NCBI GenBank assembly: GCA_947475245.1 | Contig: CANJLW010000012.1 | Span: 1-64,000, forward strand | DNA length: 64,000 bases | Direction of reading: 5' to 3' | Source of the DNA: Acetobacteraceae bacterium | GTDB taxonomy: Bacteria > Pseudomonadota > Alphaproteobacteria > Acetobacterales > Acetobacteraceae | Part shown: in pieces, positions 15,476-18,445 of the stretch | Position numbering within the stretch: position 1 is the first letter of the stretch | Layout: every line of letters begins with the position of its first letter | Notes under the pieces: generated by a model | The model's input: only the letters and a program-made list of their open reading frames with translations | Told to the model about the DNA's origin: nothing | Database searches by the model: none | Program-made: the position numbers and the translations under genes

Positions 15476-15526
15476 CGGAGTGTTCCTCGGTGGCGGGATG
15501 CCGTAACCCAGCGTCCCCAAAACCTT

Positions 15527-15630
15527 GGAAAGCGATAGCGAAACGTCGGAAATCTTTGCCCGCAACAAGGCGGTGGCTTTTTCGGAAAGGATGGAAAGCG
15601 CGGTGGCGGAAAATTCGGAAAATCCGGAAA
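15527..15630. repeat. Cluster of seven GGAAA motifs
   Basis: GGAAA occurs seven times in about 104 bases, at 15527, 15548, 15584, 15593, 15608, 15617 and 15626, mostly as CGGAAA. It lies between the divergent small hydrophobic gene and the conserved part of the HTH-like protein. It could be repeated regulator-binding sites, or just a low-complexity start of the HTH-like gene, since the frame is open through it. Confidence 0.4.
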
Positions 15631-16517
15631 GCGGCGGCGTTCTGTTTTCCCGCCATTTCCGTAACGGCACGCGCCCGACAGGGGAGCTGAAGCCATGGGG
15701 AAACAAGACCTTTATCGATGCGCCGCTCGTCAAATTCGGTGAAAGAAGTCTGTCGAACTACCTGAATGGCAAGCGGCCTAGCCGCAACAACGCGATCGCC
15801 ATCCTGCAAACGCTGTTCGAAACCAACCCCGCCCACAAGACCGAACGCGAAAAACTCGGACGCGCCTGGGGCGTGTCGGAAGACGACCTTCGGTCGCTGA
15901 ACCCGATTGGTGAAACACCCGAGACACGGAAAGCGCCAACCCCGAGCGCCGCCGCCCGCCGTCGCATCCTCAATCAGCGCCTGATGGAATTCACCCTCGG
16001 CACCGCCGGACAACACGAAACCGAGACCAACTTTGGCCTCCTCGGGGACTTCCGCTTTGGAATCGATCCCTTCCGCGAAATCGAAGCCGTGATCGGTATG
16101 GGCCTGACCCGGATCGAACTGGAAAAACAGGAAGTCGGCTGCGGTCCCGCCCTGGGTGTCCCGCGCCTGGGCGAAGAAAACGCGACCGGCACAGGCGTGC
16201 GCGCCATTGCAGGCGGGTGGGAAATCGTCGCCGCCAAGGGCAAGCATCTGGACATGAAAATCGTCGACACTCTGATGGTATTCGAACGCATCCCAGGCGA
16301 AGGTCCGCCCACCGTCACCATCGCGGCATCGGCCTATCAGGACGATCTGGTGCCCGTCTTTCGCGACCCGCCGCCCGACATCACCCCGGCCCAAAAGGCC
16401 ATAATCGGCCAGTACCTGAAACACCGGGGCTACCGAAAGGGCCAAAAGATCGACCTGGGCACCGATATCCTGGACGGTTCCCCGCGACCCCCCAGGACGG
16501 AGGAGTCCCAGTCGTGA
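15591..16517 (+). CDS. HTH-like domain protein upstream of the variable-region gene
   Basis: About 308 residues. From 'FSRHFRNGTRP' onward the N-terminal part resembles the small helix-turn-helix-like module found at the front of several alphaproteobacterial signalling and TPR proteins ('FGERSLSNYLNGKRP' would be the recognition region), followed by 'TNPAHKTEREKLGRAW'. The rest is a beta-rich domain of unknown type that I do not recognise. The start is uncertain: ATG at 15591 is used, with TTG 15525 or GTG 15603 as alternatives. It overlaps the next gene by four bases (GTGA), so it is cotranslated with the FGE-type protein and may regulate it or be its partner. Confidence 0.6.
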   Translation: MESAVAENSENPESGGVLFSRHFRNGTRPTGELKPWGNKTFIDAPLVKFGERSLSNYLNGKRPSRNNAIAILQTLFETNPAHKTEREKLGRAWGVSEDDLRSLNPIGETPETRKAPTPSAAARRRILNQRLMEFTLGTAGQHETETNFGLLGDFRFGIDPFREIEAVIGMGLTRIELEKQEVGCGPALGVPRLGEENATGTGVRAIAGGWEIVAAKGKHLDMKIVDTLMVFERIPGEGPPTVTIAASAYQDDLVPVFRDPPPDITPAQKAIIGQYLKHRGYRKGQKIDLGTDILDGSPRPPRTEESQS

Positions 16518-17674
16518 GAGTGCCCAAAACCCACCGCGCCATGGTCGCCGCGTTGATGGACGCCAGGGACGACGACCTGCCGAGCCTGTTGAAACTCAGC
16601 GGACTCGATCCGAAAACCGAACTCGTCGGCGCGGATTTCCGGGGCATGGATTTTGCCGGCATCGATCTGGCCGACTACAACCTGTCACGCTGCAATCTGT
16701 CCGGCGCGGATTTTCGCAAGGCGGTCAATGTCGACAGGGCGATGTTCGCCGACATCATCGACACCGGCACCCTGTGGCCGACCCGGCTGCGATCGCGCCC
16801 CGGATCGGAAGCCGCGCGCACGCTGGATATCGAACCCGCGATGATCGCCGTCGCGCCCGGCCGCTTCGTCATGGGGGCCGCGGACGCCGAACACAAACGC
16901 GAAAAGGTCCCGACGGAATTCCGATCGCAGGAACAACCCTGCGTCGAAGTCGCCGTCGACTGGCCCTTTCTGCTCGGCCGCTATCCCGTCACCGTCGGCG
17001 AATTCCGTCGCTTCGTGCAGGAGACCGGCTACGATATCCCACGCGGCGCCCTTGGCTGGGTAAAGGGCAAGGGCTGGGAACAGCGGGACGAGTTCTTTTG
17101 GGACAATCCCGGCTTCGAACAAACCGACCGCCATCCCGTCACCTGCGTTCTGCCGGCGGATGCCGAGGCCTATGCGCAATGGCTGAACGACAAAACCAAT
17201 AAGGGCTACCGCCTGCCGTCGGAGGTTGAATTTGAGTACGCATGTAGGGCAGGCACGACGACGGCACGGTTTTGGGGGAACGATCGTGCGGGGGCACGCC
17301 GCTTCGCCAACGCCAGCGATCTGTCGCTGGCCAGGGAACTCAAACAAAAACCCGATCCCGAACAATTCTTTCGTCACGACGATGGGTTCGCCTTCACCGC
17401 CCCGGTCGGGTCCTTCGCGCCGAACCCCTGGGGCCTGTACGATATGCTCGGCAACGTCTGGGAGTGGATGGCCGACGATTGGCATGACTCACTGAGCGAT
17501 CCAAATCCGTCCCAAATTCCGAGAATAAAGTCCGAAAAGACCCTGCTTCGCGCGGTGCGCGGCGGTTCCTGGGGCAGCGATCCGTGGAGCGTCCGTTCGG
17601 CGGCGCGCGACGGGGTCGGCAACCGGGTTGCGAGTACCGGCTTCCGGCTGGCCAGAACCTCTTTAGCCTCTTAA
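16514..17674 (+). CDS. Pentapeptide-repeat / FGE-sulfatase (C-type lectin fold) protein, probable DGR target
   Basis: 386 residues. Residues about 35-75 are pentapeptide repeats ('GADFRGMDF', 'CNLSGADFRK'). Residues about 112-380 are a formylglycine-generating-enzyme/SUMF1 domain of the C-type lectin fold: 'PGRFVMGAAD', 'YPVTVGEFRRF', 'YRLPSEVEFEYACRAGT', 'GNVWEWMAD'. The end, from 'RGGSW' to 'TGFRLA', has the form of DGR variable regions. An Avd-like gene follows directly, which makes a diversified binding protein more likely than a sulfatase-modifying enzyme. Translation starts at GTG overlapping the upstream stop, with GGAGGAG about nine bases before. No signal peptide, so it should be cytoplasmic. 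Confidence 0.85.
   Translation: MRVPKTHRAMVAALMDARDDDLPSLLKLSGLDPKTELVGADFRGMDFAGIDLADYNLSRCNLSGADFRKAVNVDRAMFADIIDTGTLWPTRLRSRPGSEAARTLDIEPAMIAVAPGRFVMGAADAEHKREKVPTEFRSQEQPCVEVAVDWPFLLGRYPVTVGEFRRFVQETGYDIPRGALGWVKGKGWEQRDEFFWDNPGFEQTDRHPVTCVLPADAEAYAQWLNDKTNKGYRLPSEVEFEYACRAGTTTARFWGNDRAGARRFANASDLSLARELKQKPDPEQFFRHDDGFAFTAPVGSFAPNPWGLYDMLGNVWEWMADDWHDSLSDPNPSQIPRIKSEKTLLRAVRGGSWGSDPWSVRSAARDGVGNRVASTGFRLARTSLAS
17561..17656 (+). other. Candidate DGR variable region (VR)
   Basis: Codons 350-381 of the FGE-type gene, spelling Gly-Gly-Ser-Trp at the start and Thr-Gly-Phe-Arg-Leu-Ala at the end. Between them the invariant framework residues (Asp356, Pro357, Val360-Ala363, Arg365, Asn370-Arg371) alternate with residues at the places usually variable in this fold: 354-355, 358-359, 364 and 372-374. 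Five of those eight codons (GGC, AGC, AGC, GTT, AGT) end in C or T, as expected if templated by AAY codons. No matching template repeat was seen in the window. Confidence 0.55.
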
Positions 17675-17724
17675 TTCTTAGACTCTTTGCCTCTTTTGAA
17701 TCTCTTGTCTTGCTTTCTTTCGTA

Positions 17725-17748
17725 GGGGCGCAGCCCCAAAATTTTTTT
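17725..17748 (+). terminator. Rho-independent terminator-like hairpin after the FGE-type gene
   Basis: GGGGC (17725-17729) and GCCCC (17733-17737) form a five-pair stem with a GCA loop, followed by AAAA and seven T. It lies 51 bases past the stop codon, in a strikingly AT-rich 126-base spacer before the Avd-like gene. In DGRs a GC-rich hairpin just past the VR is also part of the homing signal, so this may serve either or both purposes. Confidence 0.6.
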
Positions 17749-17800
17749 GAATCCGACGTATTTTCTTCTCCGAATCGACATCGTTCGGTAACGTACTCCC

Positions 17801-18112
17801 ATGACCTCGTCACCGACCAATGCACGTCAGACCGGACCGGCGCTGGAAGCGATGTATCAATTCCTGCGCTGGCTGTTGCCCACGGTCGATGGTTTCCCGC
17901 GCAGCCAGAAATTCACCCTTGGCGACCGTATCTCGACCGCCGGGCTGGATGTTTTGGATCATCTGATCGCGGCGACCTATTCCCGCGCGCGGGATCAGGC
18001 GCTGGCGGATGCCAATCTGGGGTTGGACAGGCTGCGGTTTTTCATCCGCCTGTCGCAGGACATGCGCCTGATCGATCTGAAACGTTACGAATTCGCCGCC
18101 CGCGCGATCTGA
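17801..18112 (+). CDS. avd: Avd-like four-helix bundle protein (DGR accessory variability determinant)
   Basis: 103 residues, all helical. The segments 'YQFLRWLLPTVDGFPRSQKF', 'TLGDRISTAGLDVLDHLIAA', 'YSRARDQALADANLGLDRLR' and 'RLIDLKRYEFAARA' follow the Avd/four-helix (S23-like) pattern closely. In known DGRs Avd forms a basic pentamer that binds the reverse transcriptase and is needed for mutagenic cDNA synthesis. Here it lies 127 bases after the VR-bearing gene, the usual order, but the reverse transcriptase and template repeat that normally follow are missing: the next gene is a HigA-like regulator. The rRNA-intron S23 family has the same fold, but the context favours Avd. Confidence 0.8.
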   Translation: MTSSPTNARQTGPALEAMYQFLRWLLPTVDGFPRSQKFTLGDRISTAGLDVLDHLIAATYSRARDQALADANLGLDRLRFFIRLSQDMRLIDLKRYEFAARAI

Positions 18113-18118
18113 CGCGCT

Positions 18119-18445
18119 GTGCCAATCGACACCCTGCCGCCCGTGCATCCCGGCATCTTCCTGCGGGAGGAACTGGAGGCCATGCAAATCAGCGCGCGGA
18201 CCTTCGCGGCGCATATCCATGTGCCGCATAACGCGATCACCGGCATCATGAACGGGCAACGCTCGATCACCGCGCAGATGGCGATCCGCCTGTCGCGCGC
18301 GTTCGGAACCACGCCGCAATACTGGCTGAACCTGCAAACCATCCACGATCTGAAACGCGCGCAGATTGAAATCGGCGATATCGCCGCGACCATCGTGCCA
18401 TGGACACAGACCGTCGCGCCGGATCGCTCCCCCGGCCAAGGATAA
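18119..18445 (+). CDS. higA: HigA/VapI-family addiction module antitoxin-like HTH protein
   Basis: 108 residues. The 'HPGIFLREELEAM' start, the XRE helix-turn-helix 'TFAAHIHVPHNAITGIMNGQ' and the 'RLSRAFGTTPQYWLNLQ' end are characteristic of HigA. HigA normally follows a HigB toxin gene and represses their promoter; no HigB-like gene is present, and the position upstream is taken by the Avd-like gene six bases away. It starts at GTG. It may be an orphan antitoxin or a regulator of the cassette. Confidence 0.8.
   Translation: MPIDTLPPVHPGIFLREELEAMQISARTFAAHIHVPHNAITGIMNGQRSITAQMAIRLSRAFGTTPQYWLNLQTIHDLKRAQIEIGDIAATIVPWTQTVAPDRSPGQG

Follow-up and report, generated by a model that had tools for sequence, protein, structure and literature searches.

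Organisation of the cassette

The DNA considered here (the window) comprises positions 1 to 64,000 of contig C12 in the 5.23 Mb draft genome of an Acetobacteraceae bacterium (G000:C12:1-64000; 89 contigs, 99.14% complete); throughout, G000 is the bacterium's own genome, other G-numbers are genomes compared with it, and C-numbers are contigs. The window houses a cassette with the front of a diversity-generating retroelement (DGR); the most fitting interpretation is a DGR target that has been stranded. Four genes follow one another on the + strand: a partner gene, a target gene with pentapeptide repeats and an FGE domain that ends in a variable region (VR), an Avd-like gene, and higA; there is no reverse transcriptase (RT) gene.

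The target gene (16514..17674) encodes pentapeptide repeats (about 16619-16723; PF00805, 7.1e-08) and then an FGE/C-type-lectin-like domain (about 16835-17656; FGE-sulfatase PF03781, 3.2e-56). The latter match runs to residue 381 of 386, giving a target of lectin fold with its VR at the 3' terminus. The VR (17551..17655, + strand), diversified in the past to judge from its adenine-site differences from a template repeat (TR) of G176, ends in CCAGAAC (17652..17658, + strand), at a position where the genus TRs have CCAGCAC or CCAGTAC in an alignment of 11 TRs. It is followed on the same strand by a pyrimidine-rich tract (CTTAGACTCTTTGC..., 17677..17699), which sequence comparison finds after congener VRs too, and then by a GC hairpin, GGGGC-GCA-GCCCC (17725..17737; stem 5, loop 3, shuffle p = 0.02), that resembles the target-site hairpin after other VRs. 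A hairpin with a stem of at least 5 follows 17 of the 18 VRs examined, and reaches p<=0.02 in 13 of the 18; the 5-bp stem in the window is shorter than the 7-10 bp given in PMC3240598.

Downstream lies a truncated avd gene (17801..18112, + strand) encoding 103 amino acids, which scores above the cutoff for PF22296 (47.8 bits; cutoff 40) and just below that for NF033474 (78.3 bits; cutoff 80), and matches phrog_3206, 'Avd protein of DGR'. Its frame stops at a TGA 7 nt before the start of higA (18119..18445, + strand), a clear member of TIGR02607 (91.5 bits; cutoff 47.7). At this junction (18107..18118), comparison with intact avd-RT and higBA loci shows that RT, TR and higB are all absent; higA has no higB beside it, the frame ending just 5' of it being avd.

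The partner gene directly 5' of the target (15525..16517, + strand) encodes 330 amino acids from a TTG at 15525, with an ATG at 15591, and overlaps the target start by 4 nt. It has no family match in Pfam, NCBIfam, PHROG or PADLOC, and neither it nor the target matched a defence-system library. The four-gene cassette of the initial annotation is thus borne out for the pentapeptide-FGE protein, the VR, Avd and HigA by family matches and an adenine excess, while its 'HTH-like' (helix-turn-helix) label for the first gene finds no support in those four family collections.

The variable region carries an adenine signature

Among the candidates scored, no template for the VR was found in the window or its genome, and it was compared with templates from relatives. 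Against the best of these, the G176 TR, it differs over 114 gapless bp at 15 of 24 template adenines and at 17 of 90 other sites (Fisher p = 7e-5); against the G283 TR the figures are 18/26 and 19/92 (p = 7e-6). As a control, the coding sequence 5' of the VR was compared with three G176 FGE genes, and it differed at 34-38% of adenines versus 33% of sites elsewhere (p 0.16-0.43). Since the excess at adenine sites is found in the VR and not in the coding sequence preceding it, the VR-like end is more than chance; and this confinement implies that the VR was once adenine-mutagenised, from a template unlike every template seen. In a tree of FGE domains the window protein is sister to a remote target in G176 (G176:C130), with support of 98/89.

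FGE domains are common in the window's own genome, with 12 matches in 10 reading frames. The comparison of VRs within it covered the genes at C5, C46, C8:72783 and C12, those at C64, C18, C8:45004 and C3 being left out. The VRs at C5 and C46 have a common backbone and differ mostly in NNC codons, and their FGE domains are sisters (100/97). The C5 gene (about 179981-181009) is followed by a second, shorter avd remnant. Another FGE protein in this genome (C1:44051-44797) has an N-terminal part that is TIR-like by eye.

Search for a reverse transcriptase and template

The initial annotation had reported that no RT accompanies the cassette, which holds, and had proposed a genome-wide search for a DGR RT and a template repeat, which found neither. 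The only RT match in the genome (RVT_1; C46:7873-8565) is a group II intron maturase (TIGR04416, 375.1 bits; cutoff 300), flanked by group II intron RNA (RF02005, RF00029), and DGR RT queries from Prosthecochloris and Poribacteria match only this gene. The signature of DGR RTs goes by the name of SQ motif; read from the sequence, the G421 RT has GLPIGNLTSQFFAN where the maturase has GTPQGGPLSPLLAN. When the VR was searched as DNA against the genome, the better matches were FGE gene ends only and no template appeared among the 40 of 89 candidates scored; likewise 1361 bp of congener DNA spanning the avd end, RT and TR yielded no RT remnant or template flank among the 12 of 99 candidates scored. 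A brute-force, adenine-tolerant scan of the window found no template either; some weak reverse-strand candidates clustered near a single place were rejected, having 11-13 true mismatches in 50. A DGR-type RT, a TR matching the VR at non-adenine sites and a full-length Avd are therefore all missing from what could be found in this genome.

The maturase locus shows a separate peculiarity. Its group II intron (L040:7400-9335, minus strand) is inserted within the hairpin that follows the VR of another FGE gene, with CCAAAAGGGG on one flank and CCCCCTTTTGG on the other, and the intron may have adopted the DGR target site as its own target site.

Complete and decayed elements in relatives

A search of 33 genus genomes with a Poribacteria DGR RT, followed by DNA and protein comparison, revealed FGE-Avd-RT loci in the congeners G176, G421, G328, G424 and G437, and in G406 of another genus; most other RT matches were only 25-33% identical. 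The G424 RT is split over contigs C15 and C157, and that of G437 is cut by a contig end. TRs were found for five of these six loci, the contig end leaving none in view for G437, which is absent from the VR/TR counts. Differences between VR and TR, at adenines and elsewhere respectively, number 15/1 in G421, 14/0 in G328, 15/1 in G176, 14/2 in G406 and 11/2 in G424. In both G424 and G437 a pentapeptide-FGE gene stands directly before Avd and RT, so that the arrangement in the window is less unusual than had been claimed. Elsewhere, G436 has a divergent FGE-FGE-RT-TR-like locus with no Avd detected, and G283:C223 (L189) is another decayed DGR, in which a TR lies beside a mere RT fragment and no Avd was found in the genome.

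The Avd protein is 67-80% identical to six Avds adjoining DGR RTs, and it groups with these DGR proteins and not with the S23 proteins, as the initial annotation had supposed in recognising the front of a DGR. Identity to RT-side Avds, NF033474 and phrog_3206 all favour Avd; the fold alone is not decisive. The predicted structure (predicted local distance difference test score, pLDDT, 89.7) has three helices and a short fourth of residues 93-102 only, and in Foldseek it matches 4dwl and 8ub7 with probability 1.00 but E-values of just 0.01-0.1, S23 proteins being equally close.

What the initial annotation overlooked is that the last 19 residues of the relatives' Avds, including the GRMVGGW...-type tail, are missing. 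Avd has 122 amino acids at all six loci with an RT and is cut short at all six found without one (Fisher p = 0.002, the loci not being independent). The latter are the window, C5 of the same genome, G297, G386, G421:C26 and G144, the last counted on an avd fragment alone. The breaks differ: G297 has a stop after residue 95, and divergence sets in at about residue 80 in G386, 60 at C5 and 34 in G421:C26. The G421:C26 locus, an RT-less FGE gene with cut avd in an RT-bearing genome, fits no known G421 TR (19/28 adenine and 20/89 other sites differ). Avd is rare in this part of the bacterial tree, NF033474 occurring in 8 of 395 genomes of the order, seven of them in the window's own genus, and PF22296 in 2 of 150 of the family.

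The closest Avds outside the order belong to Poribacteria DGRs, some with a shortened RT or broken avd. Among the Poribacteria and Bacteroidetes loci inspected (L024-L034), complete Poribacteria DGRs occur alongside decayed copies: the RT is reduced to its C-terminus in L027, and avd is frameshifted in L032 and broken in L033 and L034. For L029-L031, avd is matched on one strand and FGE and RT lie on the other. A phage origin was considered and rejected, since viral contigs contain no RT related to these DGRs and phage records yield weak Avd matches only.

Remote targets and satellites in the genus

Several congeners carry VRs remote from their RT that fit the main TR of the same genome. Differences at adenines and at other sites are 17/0 for G328:C29, 14/0 for G328:C28, 9/2 for G176:C44 and 14/3 for G176:C130; the remote VR at G421:C52 does not fit the main G421 template (17/15). 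The case of G176:C130 is the most pertinent, as the closest relative of the window FGE: all but 3 of 91 non-adenine sites agree with a distant G176 template. Service in trans does therefore seem to occur within the genus.

A second class of locus, here called satellites, consists of an FGE gene with its own TR but no Avd or RT within 12-13 kb: G176:C98 (L185), G424:C7 (L186) and G427:C205 (L187). G328:C90 (L184) is satellite-like, but its contig ends about 380 bp past the TR, and all that is visible at G421:C41 is a TR where the contig begins. In the longer alignment the satellite VRs differ from their own TRs, at adenines and elsewhere, by 11/0 (G328), 12/2 (G176), 15/3 (G424) and 10/5 (G427). 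Within a 90-base core, non-adenine mismatches between VR and TR are 0/70, 1/69, 0/68 and 3/72 within species, as against 6-19 between species. The FGE domains of the four form one clade (97/80). The pair that fits worst is that of G427 (80% complete); the only DGR RT found there, at C190, is truncated and divergent, and no complete one was detected. The simplest reading of these sequence comparisons is that each satellite VR is being rewritten from its own TR, in trans and at present; the alternative would be very recent RT loss in each genome. The 3' flank of the template is common to cis and satellite templates (11 TRs aligned), and a conserved stretch within it, CATGCCAGAG ..., is present in nearly all of the 11. 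This could be a candidate for the segment by which the RT recognises the template RNA.

On balance these observations incline towards viewing the genus DGR as a split, genome-wide system, in which one RT-Avd locus would serve remote FGE targets and an orthologous satellite, present in at least three species, in trans. The window cassette would then be a stranded and possibly re-activatable member of the pool, its diversification depending on return of an RT.

A probable stranded target and the alternatives

The favoured explanation, to which we assign a probability of roughly 0.83, is that the window cassette is a DGR target stranded by loss of its RT and TR. In the ancestor an RT-Avd complex would have made copies, randomly altered at adenines, of a template RNA. 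Written into the FGE gene at its 3' end, these would have varied the ligand face presented by a receptor-like protein. Loss could have come about in two ways: a deletion could have started within avd, removed RT, TR and higB and stopped just short of higA, or a dispersed copy of the locus could have broken off within avd and come to lie beside higA. Left over would be a single VR that no longer changes, the target-site hairpin, and an Avd whose fourth helix lacks its end. Production of the FGE protein probably continues, we infer, and it would act as an unchanging binding module together with the upstream partner protein.

The neighbouring higA fits into this picture. Among 12 relatives 65-76% identical to it (L155-L166), seven have a HigB-like open reading frame just upstream and one a broken one, and two of these frames are confirmed as PF05015. 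The window gene is therefore probably half of a broken higBA pair and not, as had been suggested, a gene that has taken the place of the RT; one deletion, or the arrival of a broken copy, would explain why a cut avd stands where higB should be. On the 3' side of the cassette a Nudix-LLM gene pair persists in 8 of the 15 neighbourhoods retrieved around it, and the transporter genes upstream of the cassette adjoin the pair in none.

Several points weigh against loss of the RT and TR as described. An unassembled RT is possible, since this is a draft genome and DGR loci in the genus are places where contigs break (G328:C90, G421:C41, G424); the two DNA searches scored only part of their candidates (40 of 89 and 12 of 99, as given above). 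Three of the 12 higA relatives lack a visible HigB and one gave no readable answer, and no clean empty site was found in the 15 neighbourhoods. Nor does the avd remnant show relaxed selection: the proportions of nonsynonymous and synonymous differences from G421 (pN 0.138, pS 0.588) are like those of the intact pair G421-G176 (0.127, 0.593). Either RT and TR were lost recently or the short Avd remains in use, which argues mildly against long decay.

The foremost rival, for which the breaking of contigs at DGR loci also speaks, is that the cassette is a remote target still served in trans, by an RT and TR that the cell has but the assembly lacks, or that occur in some strains only. The initial annotation had left the choice between loss and an RT elsewhere in the genome undecided. 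Congeners do have remote targets and RT-less satellites, and the window retains its VR, the VR-type end, the hairpin and apparently constrained avd codons. However, with neither a DGR RT nor a template found in a genome that is 99.14% complete, trans service there is unsupported and loss is the better supported outcome; moreover Avd is truncated, the comparable G421:C26 locus fits no known TR despite the RT in that genome, and viral contigs offer no related RT. Continued service is accordingly unlikely.

Less likely again is that the short Avd has acquired a new role alongside FGE and HigA, as a domesticated unit unrelated to mutagenesis. The 7-nt spacing of avd and higA and the constraint on avd codons would suit such a unit, but the six RT-less Avds end at differing points, higA comes next only in the window, and tblastn with HigA found nothing at the eight other DGR or relic loci tested. 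That an ordinary FGE protein, never a DGR target, lies by chance beside an S23-like four-helix protein is scarcely credible, common as FGE domains are and well as the fold model fits S23 proteins, given the confinement of the adenine signature to the VR, the identity of Avd to those beside DGR RTs, and the fit of the sister gene G176:C130 to a DGR template.

The C-terminal half of the partner protein resembles that of a DUF4062 protein adjoining the remote target G176:C130 (27% identity over 182 residues, 1.3e-10) and to a protein 5' of the FGE gene in G386 (34% over 76 residues, 7e-5). The gene is present in 2 of 32 genus genomes; homology with the frame at the equivalent place in G424 was not detected, and for G437 the match reached E 0.015 only. 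Other FGE targets of the genus are fused to or adjoin TIR domains (G421, G176, G297, G328:C90), or lie near DUF4062 (G176:C130).

Comparison with known systems

Remnants lacking an RT, remote targets and multiple TRs have already been published, in a literature on which the comparisons that follow draw (PMC10907252, PMC7517822, PMC8144416, PMC4891356, PMC6642488, PMC3240598, PMC12875486). The DGR of Bordetella phage BPP-1 (PMC3240598, PMC12875486) shares with the window Avd, adenine-specific change in the VR and a GC hairpin after it, and Avd is required in the reconstituted BPP-1 system (PMC12875486). It differs in being phage-borne and complete, and in its 4-nt hairpin loops, those of the genus here being mostly 3-nt loops of GNA type.

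The window cassette is of an already known kind, because loss of RT and TR that leaves targets behind has been published (PMC4891356, PMC7517822). Treponema denticola isolates without RT and TR (PMC4891356) likewise have targets stranded without a core DGR and complete DGRs in relatives; the window additionally keeps a truncated avd, and the relatives compared here are other species, not strains. In Nostoc PCC 7120, all3226, together with cyanobacterial remote variable proteins (PMC7517822), offers a lectin-fold target with remnant TR-VR homology, no RT nearby and intragenomic dispersal of targets, whereas the window genome has no template remnant. Both extremes of the process can be seen in the genus studied here, in complete cassettes on the one hand and decayed ones on the other, and its RT-less FGE-Avd cassettes with their cut Avds have the look of relics.

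The more novel result appears to be the trans service and satellites of the relatives, with one RT for remote targets and satellite alike. In the open literature, subscription papers lying outside the search, no satellite with a TR of its own but neither RT nor Avd was seen to have been traced across species. Such satellites are a natural test of how a single DGR RT can recognise several template RNAs in trans. Among the closest published parallels is also Thiohalocapsa PB-PSB1 (PMC10907252), with RT-less loci that are linked to putative conflict systems and some of whose VRs fit a distant TR; that genome has a DGR RT, whereas none was found in the window genome. The TIR and DUF4062 partners seen here fit the idea, put forward in the same paper, that such DGRs vary the antigen sensors of conflict systems, and by this analogy the window protein may be a putative antigen sensor.

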